From a virus, in IMG/VR virus record IMGVR_UViG_3300049445_000141, positions 1-40,589 of that record: DNA of 40,589 nucleotides; one strand, 5' to 3'. A program made the position numbers and the translations under genes. The notes under the pieces were generated by a model that had not been told where the DNA came from, searched no databases, and worked only from the letters and a program-made list of their open reading frames with translations. Shown piece by piece: positions 1,318 through 19,150 of the stretch. Positions within the stretch are counted from its first letter, which is position 1; the number at the start of each line of letters is the position of its first letter.

Positions 1318-1584
1318 ATGCCAGCCGTGAGCCGGAACCAGCAAATCGCTGCGGCCATCGCAGAGCACGAGCCATCGAAGCTCAATCCCGCCAATCGTGG
1401 CATGCTCTCGATGAACAAGTCCCAACTCCACGACTTCGCGGTCGGGCCTGGTCTCAAAAAGACCGAACGCGCCATGCACCCCCAGCACGCCATTGCGACC
1501 TCGCTCCTCAAGCACATGGCGAAGAAAGTCACCGCGAAGCCGAACGACATCGCGGAAGGCACGAACGACGTCGGCAAGTATTAG
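1318..1584 (+). CDS. Conserved phage hypothetical protein near packaging genes (88 aa)
   Basis: The gene is preceded by AAGGAG seven bases before its ATG. The protein starts MPAVSRNQQIAAAIAEHEP and contains a helical SMNKSQLHDFAVG segment. Small proteins with an MPAVS start and an S-x-S/K-x-Q-L-x-D/E-F-A helix are common upstream of phage terminases, sometimes virion-associated. It is not a convincing small terminase. It precedes the nonulosonic acid cassette on the same strand. Confidence 0.6.
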   Translation: MPAVSRNQQIAAAIAEHEPSKLNPANRGMLSMNKSQLHDFAVGPGLKKTERAMHPQHAIATSLLKHMAKKVTAKPNDIAEGTNDVGKY

Positions 1585-1586
1585 CC

Positions 1587-1853
1587 ATGCCTGATCCGGC
1601 CGGTCGTAATCTCGCGCAGTCCGAACCGTTCATGCAGATTCCGCAAGCGGTCGGACAGTTCGGCCAACAGGTCAGCAACCTCGTGCCACAACTCCCCGGC
1701 ATGATTCAGAGCGCGGGTCTTTCAGCTGTCAATGGCATCGACGCCGCGAAGGCGAAAGCGATGGCACTCGCTGCACAAGCCCGACCGATGGTGTCGAACG
1801 CGCAACAGAGCATCGCGCAAGCCTTACAGCGGCTCATGGCGAGTGGGAAGTGA
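1587..1853 (+). CDS. Hypothetical Ala/Gln-rich helical protein (88 aa)
   Basis: Two bases separate this gene from the previous stop. The 88-residue product is low in charge and rich in Ala, Gln and Met, with amphipathic helices (QAVGQFGQQVSNLVPQLPG, then AKAKAMALAAQAR). There are no cysteines and no clear membrane segment. Its TGA overlaps the ATG of neuB by one base, so it would be translationally linked to the cassette. I do not recognise a family; a minor virion role is possible. Confidence 0.55.
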   Translation: MPDPAGRNLAQSEPFMQIPQAVGQFGQQVSNLVPQLPGMIQSAGLSAVNGIDAAKAKAMALAAQARPMVSNAQQSIAQALQRLMASGK

Positions 1854-2584
1854 TGCGCCGCGTCGACTTGATCGCAGAGGTCGCGTCGAATCATGGCGGG
1901 GATTTATCGCTCGCGAAAGAGTTCATCTACCGCTACACCGAAGCCGGCGCCGACTGGATCAAATTCCAGATGACGCGCGTGGCGCATCTGCGGCCATCCG
2001 ATCCGCAATTCTCCTGGTTTGAACGCGCCGAACTCTCCGATGATGCGCTCGCGCAGCTCGCGGAGTTGTGTGGACACTGCGGCGTGAAATTCCTCTGCAC
2101 GGTCTACAACGCAGCGAACGTGCCGATGCTCCGGTCCATCTCACCCCATGTGAAAGTGGGCGCGGGTGAAGGCGCTGAAAAGACACTAGCAGAAGCCATC
2201 TTCGCCGCGAACTTTACGACCGTCATCGTCTCCAATCCCGTGCGCGCGCTGTGGATCAAGCCGATGAACAAAGGCTACAAGAAACCGCGTCTACTTCCGC
2301 TCACGACCGTCACGCGCTACCCGACGCCAACGGGCGCTGTGCATCTGGAGCCAGGCACCTTCGGCTGGTCCGATCACTGCGCGGGTATTGCTGGCGCGGC
2401 AGCGGCGATTGCGCTCGGCGCACGCATGATCGAAAAGCATGTGCAGCTCCCCTTCCAGGCTCGTCGCCATGCGCCGTGGGAAGCCACCGTCGAAGAGTTC
2501 CGCGCGCTCCGCGCCTTTGCTGATGAAGACCCTGGTCGCTTCGTCGGCCGCTGGCAGCACGTCTCGCAGGAAGTGCTCGCGTGA
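1853..2584 (+). CDS. neuB: NeuB-like nonulosonic (sialic) acid synthase, barrel domain only
   Basis: NeuB enzymes condense PEP with N-acetylmannosamine, or a related hexose, to give Neu5Ac or a similar nonulosonic acid. The signatures are visible: EVASNHGGDLSLAK near residue 10, GADWIKFQ near 33, RYPTP near 155, and GWSDHCAGI plus ALGARMIEKH near 171-196, which carry the two histidines expected to bind the metal. At about 243 residues the protein is roughly 100 shorter than typical NeuB. It stops after the TIM barrel and lacks the C-terminal SAF (antifreeze-like) domain that normally supplies a substrate-contacting arginine. GTG at 1850 is an alternative start. Its end overlaps neuC by GTGA. 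The family call is strong; the substrate is uncertain. Confidence 0.85.
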   Translation: MRRVDLIAEVASNHGGDLSLAKEFIYRYTEAGADWIKFQMTRVAHLRPSDPQFSWFERAELSDDALAQLAELCGHCGVKFLCTVYNAANVPMLRSISPHVKVGAGEGAEKTLAEAIFAANFTTVIVSNPVRALWIKPMNKGYKKPRLLPLTTVTRYPTPTGAVHLEPGTFGWSDHCAGIAGAAAAIALGARMIEKHVQLPFQARRHAPWEATVEEFRALRAFADEDPGRFVGRWQHVSQEVLA

Positions 2585-3714
2585 CCGTCTGCGTCGTGAT
2601 TACGGCACGGCCCTCCTACGCACGCGTCAAGAGCGTCATTCAAGCCCTGCACTCGGGCAACATCGACGTGAACATCGTCTGCGCGGGTAGCACGCTACTG
2701 GAGCGGTACGGCCGCGTGATCAATCTCGTTCGCAAAGACTTTCGCGCCAATGTGACCGAGATGTGGACGACCTATGAAGGCGCCACGCGCGAAACCTCCG
2801 CGAAAGAAACCGGCGCGCTCATTGCGGAATGCGCGGCGCACTTTGCGCGGACCCAGCCAGCGGCGGTGGTGGTCGTGGCCGATCGCCATGAAGTCTTAGC
2901 GCCAGCCATCGCGGCCAGTTACCAGAACATCCCGCTGATTCATCTGCAAGGCGGCGAACACACCGGCTCGATTGACGACAAGGTGCGCCATGCGATCACG
3001 CAACTCGCCGATGCGCATTGTGTCGCGACGGAGCACGCGGCTGAGTACGTGAAGCAGATTCGTCCCGACGCGCCCGTGTGGCTCACGGGATGCCCATCCA
3101 TCGACATTGCCGCGCAAATCGACAGCGAGGTGCCGGTCACACTGGATGAACTTGGGGGACACGGCGATCCGATCGACCTCGACCGACCCTTCCTCGTGGT
3201 GATGCAGCATCCCGATACGCGCATCGCGACGAATGGCTTGGATATGCTCGTCACCCTCACGGCCTGTGAGGAGACGAAATATCCCACCATCTGCTTCTGG
3301 CCTGGCGAAGACGCGGACGCCGATGTCGTGTCCAAGCAGATGCGGAGCTTCATGCCCAGCGTGCCGTTTCGCACGGTGCGGAATCTCAAGCCGGAACGCT
3401 TTCTGAAACTGCTCACGCAGGCCGCGTGTCTTGTCGGCAATTCCAGTGTGGGCATCCGTGAGTGCGCGTACCTCGGCGTGCCCGTCGTGAATATCGGCCT
3501 CCGGCAAGAGCACCGCGAGCGCGCGAGCAATGTGATGGATATTCCGACCTTCGACGTACGCGCGATTTGCTACGCGATTCAGCAACAGGCGACACGGACG
3601 CATCCACGCTCGGCGCTCTATGGTCTTCCGGGTGCCGGCGCGAAAGTCGCACACGCCATCATTCAGACGGTCCTCGTGAATAAACTGGTACCGTACACGT
3701 CTGGCGTCGCATGA
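2581..3714 (+). CDS. neuC: NeuC/WecB-family UDP-N-acetylglucosamine 2-epimerase
   Basis: This 377-residue protein has the usual length and motifs of UDP-GlcNAc 2-epimerases. It starts TVCVVITARPSYARVKSVI, has VADRHEVLAPAI near residue 98, the family hallmark GGEHTGSIDDKVRHAIT at 124-140, and a C-terminal NSSVGIRECAYLGVPVVNIG followed by RQEHRERASNV. The hydrolysing NeuC branch releases ManNAc for NeuB, and the gene order supports that over the WecB branch. The start is GTG, overlapping the neuB stop, with AGGAAG a few bases upstream. Codon use is dominated by GCG and CGC, like neuB. Confidence 0.85.
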   Translation: MTVCVVITARPSYARVKSVIQALHSGNIDVNIVCAGSTLLERYGRVINLVRKDFRANVTEMWTTYEGATRETSAKETGALIAECAAHFARTQPAAVVVVADRHEVLAPAIAASYQNIPLIHLQGGEHTGSIDDKVRHAITQLADAHCVATEHAAEYVKQIRPDAPVWLTGCPSIDIAAQIDSEVPVTLDELGGHGDPIDLDRPFLVVMQHPDTRIATNGLDMLVTLTACEETKYPTICFWPGEDADADVVSKQMRSFMPSVPFRTVRNLKPERFLKLLTQAACLVGNSSVGIRECAYLGVPVVNIGLRQEHRERASNVMDIPTFDVRAICYAIQQQATRTHPRSALYGLPGAGAKVAHAIIQTVLVNKLVPYTSGVA

Positions 3715-4406
3715 GTGACGTCCTCGCAATTATCCCAGCGCGTGTAGGATCGAAGGGCATTCCGAATAAGAATTTCAGAATGCTCTCTGGCGAAAGCCCT
3801 GTGAAGCGAGCCGCGCAGTGTGTACTAGCAGCTGGTATCACGAGAGCCTTTATCACCACGGACCATCCGACGTTCCTAGGTATTGTGAGGGACACGCTCA
3901 ATACACCATCTCTGCAACGTCCGGAAGCACTCGCGAAAGATGACACGCCGATGATCGACGTAGTGCGTGATGTCCTAGCGCGCATTCCCGGTCCTGATGA
4001 TCAGATCATCCTGCTCGTGCAACCGACACAGCCCTTGCGAGAACCGAAGCATCTCAAGGACGCCATTCGGCTGATGGAGAATCCACATACGATGTCTGTC
4101 GTCAGCGTCGTGGATACAGAATCTCCAGAGCGCATGATGTATATCGACTCCACCGGACACCTCACGTCGTGGGATGATCACGGAGTACGCGAACGACGTC
4201 AATCAGCAGCACCAGGATGTCGGCGCGATGGAACGGTCTACGGATTCAGACGCAGAAATGCAGGACTGACAAGAGAACCGTGGTACCTCTATCCATGCGT
4301 TCCACTCATAGTTCCGAAAAGCGAAACCTGCGAACTCGATACGCCTGACGATTGGGCCATCGCAGAAATCCGCCTCGCGGCTAAAGAGGCGTTGCTTCGT
4401 GCATGA
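3711..4406 (+). CDS. neuA: NeuA-like CMP-nonulosonic acid cytidylyltransferase
   Basis: NeuA uses CTP to activate sialic-type acids as CMP sugars. The signature IPARVGSKGIPNKNF is at residues 8-22. FITTDHP near 46, QIILLVQPTQPLREP near 98, and a terminal ELDTPDDWAIAEI all fit the family. At 231 residues it has normal length. It starts within the neuC stop (ATGA), and its own end overlaps the terminase start, so the cassette is welded to the packaging operon. It uses noticeably more AGA, CTA and GTA codons than neuB and neuC, which suggests a different origin. Substrate identity (Neu5Ac, legionaminate or other) is not readable from sequence. Confidence 0.87.
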   Translation: MSDVLAIIPARVGSKGIPNKNFRMLSGESPVKRAAQCVLAAGITRAFITTDHPTFLGIVRDTLNTPSLQRPEALAKDDTPMIDVVRDVLARIPGPDDQIILLVQPTQPLREPKHLKDAIRLMENPHTMSVVSVVDTESPERMMYIDSTGHLTSWDDHGVRERRQSAAPGCRRDGTVYGFRRRNAGLTREPWYLYPCVPLIVPKSETCELDTPDDWAIAEIRLAAKEALLRA

Positions 4407-6069
4407 TGCTCCGCGACGGTCTCGCCGTGCTCCTGCTCCTGCTGTGGATCTACGCGCGCACTCGCCTCAAGTAAAGTTCACTCCTCCCAAGGGCACGCAC
4501 GTCTGGCCTGCTGTCGGCAACTGGACCGAACTCCACTGGCGCCGTTGGCTCTCTGGACACAAGTGGACGCACGCGCAGATCACGCGGTATCTCAAACATG
4601 ACCGCTACGCGTATGGTGTCGGCTTCAATCCTGATGGCACGCTGGCGACTGTGGCGAGTGCTCACGAAGCCAAGTGGTTGTATCAGCCGACGCCGAAGGG
4701 CGTCACGCTGCATGCCACGCAAACGCCGAATATCCTCTGGGGCGGGTCAGCAGGAGGATCGAAATCGTTTGGTCTCCGCTGGGAAGCCCTCCGCTGCTCG
4801 CTCATGTACGAGGACTTCCGCACACTGATCGTCCGACGCGAACTCGAAGAACTGCGCCGCACCCATCTCGACAAGTTAGAACGCGAGGTGCAGAACATCA
4901 ACCTCGCGGCCGGTCGGAAGATCATGTCGCTCGGCAAACAGCCGCCAGCCCTGATCTGCGAACTGACCGGCTCCAAAATCATCTTCGGGCACGTCAACTC
5001 AATGGGCGACGAGGAACGGTACCTCTCGGAAGAATACGACCTCTTCGGTGGAGACGAAGCGACACGCCTGCTCAAGAATCAGATCGTGGGCATCGCGGGA
5101 CGGCTCCGCAACGATGAGAAGCGTCTGCATCGCATCTCGCGCATGATTCTCACGACGAACCCTGGTGGACCGTCGCACAAGTTCTGCGTGTCGCACTTCA
5201 TCGAGAAGGACGTCCAGCCAGCCGAGAACCCGCGCTACGATCCGAACGACTACACGTTCATCAAAGCGAGTTTGTACGACAATCCGTACCTGATGGATGC
5301 CGATGGTACCTACACCAACTACGAAAAGCGGCTCTACGCCTACGACGTTGACCGTCGCCGCCAACTCCTCGATGGTGATTGGAGTGCAATTGTCGGGCAG
5401 TTCTTCGGGGAGTTCTCTGAACAAGGTCACGTTAAACTCATTCCAGACCTTCCCGAAGGCTGCAAGCTCGATCGCTGGGTGCGGTGGGGCGACAAAGCGT
5501 ACTGTGCCTTCGCGCTGATCTTCCCGAACGGGCGCGTCTACATCATTGATGAAATGCTCTTTGAACCGAAGCGCGTGGCGACGTCCGTGGCGAACGACAT
5601 CAAGCGGCAGTCGGCGTATCTCCGCGATGAGTTGAAGGCGAAGCTCGGACGGACGATCGGCCACATCGAAATGGAAAAGGGCGCGGGCCTGACCGGCGAA
5701 TCTTATGCGGCGACATTCGCGCGCGCGGGCTTGTCGGTCTGGTGCGACGATACCGATCCGATCCAAGGATGGGGACGTGTGCGACACTGGTTGCAGATGG
5801 CGCCAGACGGCTCCCCATGGTTGCTGATTCATCCCAGATGTCAGTTTGCGATTCGCACACTAGCGTCGTTGGTCGAAGACAAGGACAACCCCGAAGACAT
5901 CGACGCCGGTCAAGAGGATCAAGCGGCCCACGCTGTCAGACTTGGGCTGATGGCGCGCCCCAGCCCTCGGACCTTGAAACCGGCGTCGGTGACGATTCCG
6001 AAAGACTCTCCGCGTGCGCTGATGAATGAGTGGTTGACGCCGCGCCGTGAATCAGGAATGGTGATGTAG
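4399..6069 (+). CDS. terL: Terminase large subunit (packaging ATPase-nuclease)
   Basis: TerL pumps DNA into the prohead and cuts the concatemer. The ATPase domain shows a Walker A variant WGGSAGGSKSFG at 114-125, a Walker B-like DLFGGDEA at 214-221, and the coupling motif ILTTNPGGPSHKF at 250-262. The C-terminal RNase H-like nuclease follows from about 360 (RWVRWGDKAYCAF, then NGRVYIIDEML, and later EDQAAHAVRLGLM). The length of 556 is normal. The start is uncertain: GTG 4399 has AGAGG about nine bases upstream and overlaps neuA by eight bases, and GTG 4444 is an in-frame alternative. No separate small terminase is evident upstream. Confidence 0.92.
   Translation: MHDAPRRSRRAPAPAVDLRAHSPQVKFTPPKGTHVWPAVGNWTELHWRRWLSGHKWTHAQITRYLKHDRYAYGVGFNPDGTLATVASAHEAKWLYQPTPKGVTLHATQTPNILWGGSAGGSKSFGLRWEALRCSLMYEDFRTLIVRRELEELRRTHLDKLEREVQNINLAAGRKIMSLGKQPPALICELTGSKIIFGHVNSMGDEERYLSEEYDLFGGDEATRLLKNQIVGIAGRLRNDEKRLHRISRMILTTNPGGPSHKFCVSHFIEKDVQPAENPRYDPNDYTFIKASLYDNPYLMDADGTYTNYEKRLYAYDVDRRRQLLDGDWSAIVGQFFGEFSEQGHVKLIPDLPEGCKLDRWVRWGDKAYCAFALIFPNGRVYIIDEMLFEPKRVATSVANDIKRQSAYLRDELKAKLGRTIGHIEMEKGAGLTGESYAATFARAGLSVWCDDTDPIQGWGRVRHWLQMAPDGSPWLLIHPRCQFAIRTLASLVEDKDNPEDIDAGQEDQAAHAVRLGLMARPSPRTLKPASVTIPKDSPRALMNEWLTPRRESGMVM
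4403..4474 (+). CDS. Possible 23-aa single-span membrane peptide overlapping the terminase start
   Basis: An ATG overlapping the neuA stop (ATGA) opens a 23-residue frame, MMLRDGLAVLLLLLWIYARTRLK, ending with TAA at 4472. It reads as one hydrophobic helix with positive charges on both ends. It is embedded out of frame within the first 75 bases of the terminase gene. The overlap geometry is the same as in the rest of the operon, but an open frame this short can arise by chance. Confidence 0.25.
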   Translation: MMLRDGLAVLLLLLWIYARTRLK

Positions 6070-10265: not shown

Positions 10266-11243
10266 ATGTCCATTCCCGGCCCCAACAAGGGTCAGGTGGT
10301 GGCGAGCGCGTGGGAGGATTACGTCAAGCAAGATCCAGCCGACAACATTTTCAATTACTTCTGGTTGCTGGAAAACTTGCGCGTCGGTGACACCTTCAAA
10401 AAGGGCGCTGGCGATCCGATCACGGGCACCATCGAATACCAGACCAACACGACCACCAAGTCGATGTCGGAACTGGAAACCCTCGACGTCTCGCGTATCG
10501 ACGTGTTCGATCGCTACGAGTACGCGTGGAAGCTGGTCGGCGGCTTGATCGTCATGTCCGACTTCGAGCGCGGACAGACGGCCGGCGCCGCAGGGAAGTT
10601 TGATCTGGAAGCGGGCAAGATGGAGAACCTCAAGAACTCCATGATGTCCCAGATCAATACCGACCTCTTCTCGGACGGCACCGGCACGAGCAGCAAGCAG
10701 GCGGGCGGGTTGCAGTACATCGTGTCCTCGACGCCGACGACCGGCACCGTGGGTGCGATCAACCGCGTCAACTTCTCGTTCTGGCGCAATCAGCAGTCCT
10801 CGGGCGCGAAGTCCTCGACCATCTACGACAACCTCAAGGCGACCATGCGAACGGTGTACAACAACTGTTCGTCCGGCGTCTCGATGCAGACGCCGGATTT
10901 CGGCGTGACCGATCAGACGACGTTTGAAGGGTACGAGTCCCTGAGCGTCACCGTGGAGCGGCTGAACCGTACGTCCACCTCGGACAAGTTGCTCAGCGGC
11001 TACCAGGGTGATCACATCATGTTCAAGGACATCCCGATTGCGTACGATCGGGCCGCACCGTCGGCGCTCATGTACATCCTCAACCGGCGCAATCTCTTCA
11101 TCCGATGGATGTACTGGATGAAGGCGTCACCGGCCGTCAACCCCGCGAACCAGTTTGCCGACGTCGTGAAGATCCTCACGGTCTACAATCTGGTCTCGGA
11201 TAACCCGCGCCGCCTTGGCGTGATCACCTCAACGCAGAGCTAA
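10266..11243 (+). CDS. Major capsid protein
   Basis: The 325-residue product follows the scaffold and has an excellent ribosome-binding site (TAGGAG before CCTCCATG). The sequence resembles HK97-fold capsid proteins of this phage type: long E-loop region (TGTIEYQTNTTTKSMSELET), helical spine (EAGKMENLKNSMMSQINTDLF), and a terminal region rich in beta structure (DIPIAYDRAAPSALMYILNR). It would form the icosahedral shell. Position and size, rather than any single motif, carry the call. Confidence 0.82.
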   Translation: MSIPGPNKGQVVASAWEDYVKQDPADNIFNYFWLLENLRVGDTFKKGAGDPITGTIEYQTNTTTKSMSELETLDVSRIDVFDRYEYAWKLVGGLIVMSDFERGQTAGAAGKFDLEAGKMENLKNSMMSQINTDLFSDGTGTSSKQAGGLQYIVSSTPTTGTVGAINRVNFSFWRNQQSSGAKSSTIYDNLKATMRTVYNNCSSGVSMQTPDFGVTDQTTFEGYESLSVTVERLNRTSTSDKLLSGYQGDHIMFKDIPIAYDRAAPSALMYILNRRNLFIRWMYWMKASPAVNPANQFADVVKILTVYNLVSDNPRRLGVITSTQS

Positions 11244-11259
11244 GGGAAGGAGGCACTCA

Positions 11260-11823
11260 ATGGCTGTCATTTCAGGACGCGGAGGCGCCGCCATTCCTGG
11301 CGAAACCTCGGAACTGTTCTCGTCGGTGTTTCTCCCGCTCGGCACGCGGGCGACGGACGTCAATGGCAACGAATACATCTTCGTTGACTTCGGCGCCGCG
11401 CCTTCGGCCACTGGCTTCGTGTACGGATCGTGGGTGCAGTTCGACCATAACTTCTTGGCGACCATCCTCACGACCACGGCACGCGGCTGGGTCGGCATCG
11501 TCACGTCCGGTTCGGCCGGACAGACGGTCTCGGCCACCTTGCGCTACGGATGGGTTCAGATTTACGGAATCCACACGGGCGCGCTCGGCACGTCTGGTGT
11601 CACCACGGCCGATGGCTTGATCGCGGTCGTGACGACGGACGTGGGCTACGTGGACAAATCGACGTCCACGGAAACCAGCAACTTCGCGTTGTTCAATGCC
11701 CTCGCGAGGACGGCTCCGAATACGTGCGCGAGTACGGCCACTGGCACCTCGGCCTTGGTCGCGCCGTTCACGGCCCAGCTCAATTACCCGTTCATGGCGG
11801 GCTGGTTCGGCTCCACATCGTAG
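11260..11823 (+). CDS. Capsid-associated (decoration-like) protein
   Basis: It starts 16 bases after the capsid stop with AAGGAGG in between. The 187-residue product is rich in Gly, Thr, Ser and beta-strand patterns and has few charged residues (GRGGAAIPGETSELFSSVF, YIFVDFGAAPSATGF). Small beta-rich proteins directly after the capsid gene usually decorate or stabilise the head. No sequence motif proves this. Confidence 0.5.
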   Translation: MAVISGRGGAAIPGETSELFSSVFLPLGTRATDVNGNEYIFVDFGAAPSATGFVYGSWVQFDHNFLATILTTTARGWVGIVTSGSAGQTVSATLRYGWVQIYGIHTGALGTSGVTTADGLIAVVTTDVGYVDKSTSTETSNFALFNALARTAPNTCASTATGTSALVAPFTAQLNYPFMAGWFGSTS

Positions 11824-11842
11824 GTCGTTAAGGGAGGTTGGC

Positions 11843-12730
11843 GTGAGTCGAACGGACGGACAGGATCGTTCCAATAGCATCACCCCGTTGGGACATCTGC
11901 GTCCAGGTCAGCCGATCACGCCAGCCATCCTTGCCGCGCATGGCGACCGGATCTACGAACCTCCGCCGATCCTGCCGCATCGGCAGCTCGGCATCGGTCT
12001 GCAACGTAAGATTGCGATTCTCGGCTCCGCGCCCACGCTGGATCAGACCCCGTGGTTTGATCCCTCATGGGAAATCTGGTCGCACGCGACCATTCATACC
12101 CTCTGCCGACGTGTGGACCGCTATTTCGACCTCCATCCGTGGTCATGGATTGAGTCGAAGGGCAGTCCCGGCTATCTCAGTTGGATGAAGCGCGAAAAGG
12201 CGCCGATCTTTCTCGCAGAACTGCGACAGGAAGTGCCGTCATCGGTGCGCTATCCGCTGGATCGGATTCTCTCCGAGTTTCCACGCTACTTCACGTCCCA
12301 CACGGCGTACATGGTCGCCTTGGCGCTGACGGAAGGCGTGTCGCATCTCGGATTCTTCGGGATTCACTATCAACTCGGCTCAGAATACGAAGAACAGCGC
12401 GCGGGCGCGGAGTTTTGGGCGGGCATCGCAGCAGGACGTGGCGTACAACTGGTCATTCCTCCGACGTCGCCGTTCTGCCACGAACCAAAGGAACTCTACG
12501 CCTACGAATCGCACGCGGCAGGCGAGCCGGCGACGAAGCGTAAGGCGCGCAAGCAGTTTGACCGCGTGGATGCCAAAATCGACGGCCTCCATCTCAGAAT
12601 CGGTCTGACACCGGAAGAGTCTGAGCGTACCGCGCATCCGGGTGTCGAAATGGCGAAAGACCTCGTGAACATGCGCCGCATGATCGAAGGCAAGCCCGCG
12701 ATGCTGCCCAACGGTCAACCGGCCTGGTAA
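11843..12730 (+). CDS. Phage protein with GT42 (sialyltransferase)-like motif order
   Basis: GTG at 11843 has AGGGAGG six bases upstream, giving 295 residues. An N-terminal nucleotide-sugar-type strand-loop KIAILGSAPTLDQ lies near 56, DRYFDLHPW near 92, then YFTSHTAYMVALALTEGV near 149 and LGFFGIHYQLGSEYEEQRAG near 169, ending in VQLVIPPTSP. Related proteins occur in many phages without a proven role. The order GxGPS, TSxxYMxAxALxxG, SGIDFY is that of GT42 sialyltransferases (Cst-II type) and related DUF115-like folds. Here the usual Asp of GID is His. With neuBCA upstream, a transferase using the CMP sugar is a testable inference, not a demonstrated function. Confidence 0.5.
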   Translation: MSRTDGQDRSNSITPLGHLRPGQPITPAILAAHGDRIYEPPPILPHRQLGIGLQRKIAILGSAPTLDQTPWFDPSWEIWSHATIHTLCRRVDRYFDLHPWSWIESKGSPGYLSWMKREKAPIFLAELRQEVPSSVRYPLDRILSEFPRYFTSHTAYMVALALTEGVSHLGFFGIHYQLGSEYEEQRAGAEFWAGIAAGRGVQLVIPPTSPFCHEPKELYAYESHAAGEPATKRKARKQFDRVDAKIDGLHLRIGLTPEESERTAHPGVEMAKDLVNMRRMIEGKPAMLPNGQPAW

Positions 12731-17772: not shown

Positions 17773-18047
17773 TGGACATCTATATTCCCCAAGGCATCGT
17801 TGATGACTACGCGGACGCGAAGTGGGAGACAAAACCTCACGGCATCATCTTTGTGGATGGCAAGGAAGTCGCCCACACGCTGAAATGTCCGCATTGTGGA
17901 GGCCAGTTCGTCTCACGCGCTGGATCGGGACATCACCGGACCTACTGCTTCCGTCATCAGGCCGTGACATGCGGATCGGCCTCCTGTTCGCACGATTGCG
18001 TAGACATCTACACGATTGAAGGCACCCTCTCTGTGAGGGAGTACTAG
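17772..18047 (+). CDS. Zinc-ribbon-like protein (91 aa)
   Basis: The core LKCPHCGGQFVSRAGSGHHR is followed by YCFRHQ and two further Cys in TCGSASCSHDCVD, giving seven cysteines in 91 residues. It begins in a TAATG overlap and ends in an overlap with the GTG of the repeat protein. Likely metal-binding, function unknown. Confidence 0.6.
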   Translation: MDIYIPQGIVDDYADAKWETKPHGIIFVDGKEVAHTLKCPHCGGQFVSRAGSGHHRTYCFRHQAVTCGSASCSHDCVDIYTIEGTLSVREY

Positions 18048-19150
18048 TGGCCCAGCACGCGCGGCCGGTTGGGCCAGTGATCAACGCGCAAGCCACGATC
18101 ACCTCCAGCATGTTTGCGGGATCGGCGCCGCCGCGTAATCGTCAACTGCTCGGGCCGAAGATACCGCTCCCGGTCGTCCAGCAGACACCCGTCGCGAACA
18201 CGTTTACGTCGAGCATGTCAGCTGGCTACCATCCAGATAGCCCAGTCCTGTTCTCGACACGGAACAAGCTCGGGCAAACGCTGCTTCAGCCCACGCCGGT
18301 CGCGGCGGCGTTCACCTCCAGCATGTCCGATGGGAACAAGCCCGCACGCAATCGGGCCTTCCCGCCACAGAACGAAGGCTGGTTCGCGCAGGATGGCACG
18401 ACCGCCGCCGTCGCGCCGTTTACGTCCAGCATGGTCGATGGCTGGCATCCCGATCGGAACCGCGCCTTTCCGCCGAAGAATCTCGGGTGGTCGGTCGTCC
18501 AACCGACGCCGGTCGCCAATCCCTTCGGTCCTGAGATGGCTGATGGGTGGTATCCCGATCGCAATCGGCAGTTCCCACCGAAGAACCTCGGCTTGTCGGT
18601 CTCACAGACGACGTTCGACCAGCGACCGTTCAGCGTGGACATGGCGCAAGGCTGGACACCGGCTCGGTATCGCCAGTTCCCACCGAAGAACCTTGGCTGG
18701 TCGGTCGTGCAGAGTACGCCTGTGGCGGCGCCCTTCGGGCCAGAGATGGCGCAGGGTTGGCTCCCAGCACGTTATCGCGCGTTCCCACCGAAGAACGAAG
18801 GACTCAGCGTCTCGCAGACGACATTCGTGGCCGGCGTCAGCGTCGAGATGATGCAGGGATGGTTGCCCGCTCGGTACCGCCAATTCGCACCGAAGAACCA
18901 AGGACTCAGCATCGTGCAGGCCGTGCCAGTCGCCGCGCCCTTCAGCCCTGAGATGGTGCAAGGCTCGTTGCCGATCCGGTACCGCCAGTCTCCACCACAC
19001 AATCAAGGGTGGTACACGGCCCAACTGGCCGATATCATTCGCCGCGTGCTCTATCGCTACAAAGCGCGCGTGCGTCCAGACGATCGCACGGCGATCGTGG
19101 AGAACGACCATCCACCGATGCGCCGCATGATGATTCGGAAGACGCCGTGA
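18047..19150 (+). CDS. Tandem-repeat virion protein, nine ~35-residue repeats
   Basis: The 367-residue product begins at a GTG overlapping the previous stop. From about residue 18 to 326 it consists of nine tandem units of 35-36 residues. The consensus reads as M-x-x-G-W-x-P-x-R-x-R, then FPPKN, then G-x-S-x-x-Q-x-T, then PVAAPF. Units 4 to 8 are most alike; 1, 2 and 9 are degenerate. The C-terminal 41 residues (LADIIRRVLYRYKARVRPDD and a basic end) are unique. Repeats rich in Pro, Arg and aromatics suggest an extended fibre or a multivalent binding surface. I know of no family name. Confidence 0.75.
   Translation: MAQHARPVGPVINAQATITSSMFAGSAPPRNRQLLGPKIPLPVVQQTPVANTFTSSMSAGYHPDSPVLFSTRNKLGQTLLQPTPVAAAFTSSMSDGNKPARNRAFPPQNEGWFAQDGTTAAVAPFTSSMVDGWHPDRNRAFPPKNLGWSVVQPTPVANPFGPEMADGWYPDRNRQFPPKNLGLSVSQTTFDQRPFSVDMAQGWTPARYRQFPPKNLGWSVVQSTPVAAPFGPEMAQGWLPARYRAFPPKNEGLSVSQTTFVAGVSVEMMQGWLPARYRQFAPKNQGLSIVQAVPVAAPFSPEMVQGSLPIRYRQSPPHNQGWYTAQLADIIRRVLYRYKARVRPDDRTAIVENDHPPMRRMMIRKTP
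18098..19024 (+). repeat. Nine in-frame ~105-bp tandem repeats
   Basis: The DNA behind the repeat protein recurs about every 105-108 bases. The best conserved stretch is TTCCCACCGAAGAA, which encodes the FPPKN core, seen at several units, with variants TTTCCGCCGAAGAA and TTCGCACCGAAGAA. Unit divergence is graded, with the centre most alike, as expected from unequal recombination followed by drift at the edges. Confidence 0.7.

Follow-up and report, generated by a model that had tools for sequence, protein, structure and literature searches.

A phage-encoded NeuB-NeuC-NeuA cassette in a packaging operon and a candidate GT42/Maf-like transferase beside the capsid gene suggest decoration of the virion with a sialic-type sugar

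We propose that the virus described here encodes a system for the synthesis and transfer of a nonulosonic acid, which is linked to the late genes and most likely decorates the capsid. We estimate the probability of this reading at roughly 60%. The whole stretch of DNA analyzed (hereafter the window) is a virus record of 40,589 bases, and the virus appears to infect bacteria. In the proposed pathway, NeuC would convert host UDP-GlcNAc to ManNAc, and a NeuB lacking the SAF domain would condense PEP with ManNAc, or with a closely related hexose, to give a nine-carbon ulosonic acid. NeuA would convert this acid to the CMP-sugar, and a GT42/Maf-like protein would then transfer the sugar to Ser/Thr residues, most likely those of the adjacent protein encoded at 11260..11823, or to another virion protein. 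The system would be expressed together with the late genes. An acidic sialic-type sugar on the particle might change its charge or mask it.

The genes of the synthesis part lie on the plus strand. The small late gene orfD (1318..1584, +) is followed by orfE (1587..1853, +; 88 aa, no family assigned), neuB (1853..2584, +), neuC (2581..3714, +), neuA (3711..4406, +) and terL (4399..6069, +), the last of which encodes the terminase large subunit (Terminase_3, PHROG 979). The start codon of neuB is more likely ATG at 1853 (243 aa) than GTG at 1850 (244 aa). The junctions read TGATG (orfE/neuB), GTGA (neuB/neuC) and ATGA (neuC/neuA), and neuA and terL share an 8-base overlap, GTGCATGA; the gene overlaps at the junctions are thus one to eight bases long. 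The open reading frames, the Pfam matches and the junctions confirmed the preliminary description, in which overlapping neuB, neuC and neuA genes had been placed between a small gene and terL.

All three proteins scored above the Pfam cut-offs, whereas the NCBIfam equivalog cut-off was passed by NeuC only. NeuC, a hydrolysing UDP-GlcNAc 2-epimerase (Epimerase_2, PF02350, 4e-50), scored 268 bits against the cut-off of 236 bits for TIGR03568, and its alignment with human GNE (4zht) gave an E-value of 1e-45. It keeps the segments ADRHE, GGEHTGSIDD, MQHPDT and GNSSVGIRE, which align with the catalytic motifs of GNE in 4zht; we take these motif regions to be those of D112, E134, D143 and H220. NeuA, a CMP-nonulosonate cytidylyltransferase (CTP_transf_3, PF02348, 1e-14), matched the CMP-Neu5Ac synthetases 6ifd (E 2e-17) and 1eyr (E 4e-12). 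Its best NCBIfam profile was TIGR03584 (PseF), with a score below the cut-off (88 vs 206 bits). The motifs PAR-GSKG-(x)3-KN and QPT-PLR are present in NeuA, and the metal motif D-x-D reads E-x-D (CELDTPDD), as it also does in the relative L004.

NeuB showed the features of a sialic/nonulosonic acid synthase-like barrel (PF03102, 1e-20), while its score for the equivalog TIGR03569 was 92 bits against a cut-off of 400. The structural model (pLDDT 76, pTM 0.79) is a complete (beta/alpha)8 barrel with all eight strands, and it matched N. meningitidis NeuB (1xuu) with a VIA Z of 23.8. Residues E9, K37, K101, H175 and H196 (numbered from ATG 1853) are the metal- and PEP-binding residues, which presumably correspond to E25, K53, K129, H215 and H236 of the N. 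meningitidis enzyme. They are invariant in 37 viral NeuBs and are conserved in the five cassette phages at identities down to 33%. The protein, however, ends after the barrel and has no C-terminal SAF (antifreeze-like) domain, and the same is true of its four relatives. The segment between strands 5 and 6 is shortened. There is no Asp at the position of N. meningitidis D247; a nearby acidic residue, E210, which follows W/Y, stays E or D in the five phages. A canonical full-length NeuB was ruled out by the missing SAF domain. The claim of a complete pathway in the preliminary description has to be qualified by the missing SAF domain of NeuB. At the level of the active sites, the motifs of NeuC, most of those of NeuA and the metal and PEP residues of NeuB are kept, whereas the SAF Arg and D247 are absent.

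We take the substrate Arg of the SAF domain to be R314 in N. meningitidis NeuB and R322 in the Caulobacter enzyme. This Arg is essential in Caulobacter NeuB, in which the R322A variant is inactive (PMC7591256). The synthase step is therefore the least certain one, and a change of substrate has to be seriously considered. NeuB may differ in substrate or mechanism from a canonical Neu5Ac synthase. It could use another aldose or make another keto-sugar acid, so that the sugar on the coat would not be Neu5Ac, an alternative that we regard as less probable than not but well worth considering and that is compatible with a coat sugar. Consistent with it, the SAF domain is missing in all five cassette phages with the core residues retained, and KDO8P and DAHP synthases, which share the fold and have no SAF domain, matched the NeuB model with VIA Z of 18-20. 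The position of NeuB on a long branch and the PseF profile as the best match of NeuA point in the same direction. On the other hand, NeuC, a member of a ManNAc-producing family, is kept beside NeuB in all five phages, and no match to a PseB-type gene was found in the window. It is improbable, in our judgment, that NeuB is a degenerate remnant whose step is supplied by the host. The loss of the SAF domain and of D247, together with the TIGR03569 score far below the cut-off, would fit such a remnant, but the reading frame is intact and under purifying selection, the barrel is complete, and the metal and PEP residues have been kept among quite divergent phages.

The comparison with relatives showed that the synthesis genes are an insertion. 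Scanning IMG/VR with TerL yielded 29 loci. One of these (L002) is near-identical to the window, and another (L004; TerL 88% identical) carries orfE, neuB, neuC and neuA at the same place, with identities of 75, 63, 74 and 58%, respectively. In three further relatives (L007, L008 and L009), whose TerL is 82-83% identical, the site is empty: orfD and terL, which mark the left and right edges of the insertion, are immediate neighbors, and the GTG start of terL is kept. Searches of the full records of these three relatives found no NeuB or NeuC, and orfE is also missing from them. Since relatives with such similar TerL sequences have an empty site, we concluded that orfE-neuB-neuC-neuA is an inserted cassette, of which orfE is the first gene; in this clade, orfE is present only together with the cassette. 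The NG86 dN/dS values were 0.41 for neuB, 0.14 for neuC, 0.26 for neuA and 0.09 for terL, indicating purifying selection with faster change in the neu genes. The window and L004 share ancestry and are therefore not independent. The trio of genes is nevertheless not a chance arrangement, because L004 carries it at the same site and in the same order, and the order neuB, neuC, neuA was also found in three more divergent phages. Pseudogenes or a degenerate insertion were ruled out by the open frames, the purifying selection and the conservation, and a single odd contig by the occurrence of related loci in L002, L004, L092, G024 and G027. Scans of genome contigs with NeuB and with TerL gave no match that would indicate the host, and the only matches in INPHARED were distant ones of the capsid protein (a Bradyrhizobium phage at 30%; Myxococcus Mx8/Mx9 at ~27%). 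Apart from the cassette, the protein encoded at 18047-19150 of the window contains several imperfect repeats of the type EMxxGWxPxRxRxFPPKNxG, as seen by eye, and has no match in the compared relatives.

The preliminary description ended the pathway at the CMP-sugar and missed a candidate fourth enzyme downstream. The major capsid protein gene (10266..11243, +; PHROG 9953, 5e-40) is directly followed by a gene for a probable decoration protein (11260..11823, +) and by the gene for a GT42/Maf-like candidate nonulosonic-acid transferase (11837..12730, +; 297 aa from GTG 11837, in a longer frame that opens at 11696). The latter is located 7.4 kb downstream of the neu genes. Searches of the window's open reading frames against Pfam, PHROG and NCBIfam did not pick up the transferase; it emerged from the gene-content comparison, in which both genes after the capsid gene are present in cassette carriers and not in the empty-site relatives, and from its motifs. 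Its likeness to GT42 sialyltransferases was first spotted by eye. No transferase was found in the records of L007, L008 and L009.

The structural model of the transferase was weak (pLDDT 57, pTM 0.50). With this weak model, the seven best Foldseek matches were all CstII, with E-values from 1.7e-3, and CstI, CstII, a Pasteurella sialyltransferase and the Maf protein 5mu5 matched with VIA Z of 10.0-10.7. The part predicted to resemble the fold of CstI/CstII and the Maf flagellin glycosyltransferases covers residues ~46-221, with an aligned A-(x)-A-L-x-x-G-(x)5-G-I segment and an N-terminal G-x-x-P/x-T/S motif. The identity, however, is only ~11-15%, the protein falls outside every Pfam family, and no counterpart of the catalytic His of CstII was located. 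A profile of 24 sequences of the family gave nine matches with E<10 in the PDB, all of them sialyltransferases and each below the threshold (best E 0.097). It is unlikely, in our view, that the protein is something other than a glycosyltransferase, for instance a pyrophosphokinase-like protein only indirectly linked to the neu genes. Thiamin pyrophosphokinase (3lm8, Z 10.4) and an archaeal HPPK (Z 9.1) also matched the model, and none of the 24 family members matched Pfam above chance. Since a pyrophosphokinase with this superfold scores just as well in VIA, the fold alone is no proof of transferase function. Besides the exclusively sialyltransferase matches in the PDB, the association of the family with NeuB-NeuA, its adjacency to them and its fusion to a GT2 domain in one contig, as described below, argue against the pyrophosphokinase-like alternative. 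We treat the protein as a candidate GT42/Maf-like transferase from an unclassified phage family; the gene association carries most of the weight.

A scan of IMG/VR with the transferase alone retrieved the window phage, the phage of L004 and L092. In L092, neuB, a methyltransferase gene, neuC and neuA follow the portal gene, and two transferase copies follow the capsid and decoration genes. When the profiles of both the transferase and the neu genes were applied to 23 records, 3 had both and 20 had neither, the transferase occurring only in cassette carriers (Fisher p of 0.0006 for the 3/0/0/20 table and of 0.006 when limited to records of at least 12 kb; the records are related and the values are descriptive only). 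When the scan was widened to four transferase sequences as queries, 24 loci were retrieved. NeuB was found in 10 of the 18 transferase contigs, and a cytidylyltransferase (CTP_transf_3) in the same 10, in what is a small sample of related records; NeuB was not found in the other 8, some of which are fragments. NeuC is present in three of the 10 (L092, L100 and L103), and the contigs of L100 and L103 again have the order neuB, neuC, neuA with a SAF-less NeuB. Conversely, 4 of 39 NeuB-anchored loci hold the transferase family, and in L076 and L082 the family gene adjoins NeuB-NeuA. In L053 (13246-14865), a GT42-like domain and a GT2 glycosyltransferase domain form one fusion protein, on a contig that carries NeuB-NeuA. 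The second transferase copy of L103 (10881-11573) consists of two adjacent matches (10881-11270 and 11301-11573) and is perhaps a broken gene. The NeuB frame of L134 (2733-3833, in G024) has ~130 extra N-terminal residues, which stem from either a fusion or a wrongly placed start.

The only named isolate with a member of the transferase family is a Microcystis phage. Its GT42-like gene (PP496355.1, 34781-35584; L136:19908-20711) is annotated as a type 11 methyltransferase and lies directly before the terminase small subunit gene. No recognisable neu genes were found in this isolate. Some phages may therefore draw on CMP-sugars of the host, or other donors may serve the family.

The protein encoded at 11260..11823 contains 24% Ser+Thr; over 122 residues it shares 40% identity with the product of the gene at the same place in L092. 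In this clade its gene occurs only in cassette carriers; an empty-site relative has a different protein of 305 aa with 14% Ser+Thr at this place and no transferase. For this reason we infer that the probable decoration protein is the acceptor. The results support the production of a CMP-nonulosonic acid by the phage. Of the two uses that had been suggested for it, glycosylation of virions is favored over recoating of the host, as the predicted transferase adjoins the capsid gene.

GT42 enzymes mostly act on lipooligosaccharide (cf. the title of 9c08), which would agree with recoating of the host, in which a transferase of the host or of the phage puts the CMP-sugar on the LPS, capsule or flagellum to exclude rival phages or to hide the infected cell. 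The phage-encoded nonulosonate genes epaA/epaB, which act on the host capsule (PMC12053666), would agree with it as well. We consider recoating unlikely, however. The cassette and the transferase lie inside the packaging and capsid genes (the window was annotated up to ~32 kb, and a lysogeny module may lie beyond), and the transferase has been swapped together with the capsid-adjacent gene. Virion glycosylation is better supported because the cassette and the capsid-adjacent transferase occur together and are absent together.

The combination differs from the systems with which we compared it. Bacterial neuBCA clusters, such as that of Moritella viscosa (FPLJ01000048), likewise bring these three enzyme families together, with NeuC over the equivalog cut-off. 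The Moritella cluster, however, lies beside capsule genes and has a full-length NeuB of 347 aa, whereas that of the window lies in a packaging operon, has a SAF-less NeuB and is accompanied by a candidate transferase beside the capsid gene. The Moritella contig with neuA, neuB and neuC (FPLJ01000048.1; L089) was found in the phage collection and looks bacterial. Mycobacteriophages have their own glycosyltransferases, which are thought to glycosylate the capsid protein. To our knowledge, no report on virion glycosylation in mycobacteriophages describes a phage-encoded nonulosonic-acid pathway; such reports concern transferases (cf. the Maravista announcement, PMC11256854). The prophage genes epaA/epaB of Acinetobacter baumannii likewise represent phage-encoded nonulosonic-acid chemistry, but what they modify is a capsular sugar made by the host, with no sugar synthesis and no link to the virion (PMC12053666). 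Literature searches on phage sialic-acid synthesis gave no matching paper; this absence is weak, all terms having been required together.

As a background figure, one full-length phage NeuB used as the query matched only 3 of 50,697 INPHARED records. The search with an alignment of four NeuB sequences gave 39 viral NeuB loci. Ten of these group apart in a SAF-less clade of their own (support 100/100); PseB accompanies nearly all of them, and a DUF218/YdcF-like protein and a cytidylyltransferase most of them. The window family lies on a long branch whose place in the tree is unsure. The idea that all SAF-less phage NeuBs form one clade is unsupported, as the tree separates the window family from the PseB-linked short clade. 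The second recurrent cassette (L067, L072, L074, L077, L079, L083, L085, L086, L087 and L047) consists of a PseB-like dehydratase, a SAF-less PseI/NeuB with the EPSELE-type motif kept and, in most cases, a DUF218/YdcF-like protein together with an SpsF-like cytidylyltransferase. It lies upstream of the terminase and a DUF4055 protein in several phages, and between terL and a Mu-type portal gene in L047. These positions indicate that nonulosonate genes entered packaging modules in unrelated phages. In addition, weakly matched TerL and Mu-type portal genes flank a solitary NeuB-like gene in L080 (5285-9618), and NeuB is followed by a portal match in L084 (510-4709).

The chances seem to us about even that tailed phages possess an undescribed virion sialylation system, composed of SAF-less NeuB, NeuC and NeuA encoded in the packaging operon and of a new GT42-like family encoded beside the capsid gene, which are gained and lost together and would coat the particle with a nonulosonic acid of the phage's own making. 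On this reading, the recurrence of SAF-less synthase cassettes in unrelated phages suggests more than one origin of the system. If this is true, a phage would make and attach its own sialic-type sugar with a minimal synthase devoid of SAF and a transferase from an unclassified family, and a stripped-down member would join a well-studied enzyme class. The scattered sialic acid genes of uncultured phages would then have a purpose, and glycosylation of the phage particle could be tested by expressing just a few proteins.
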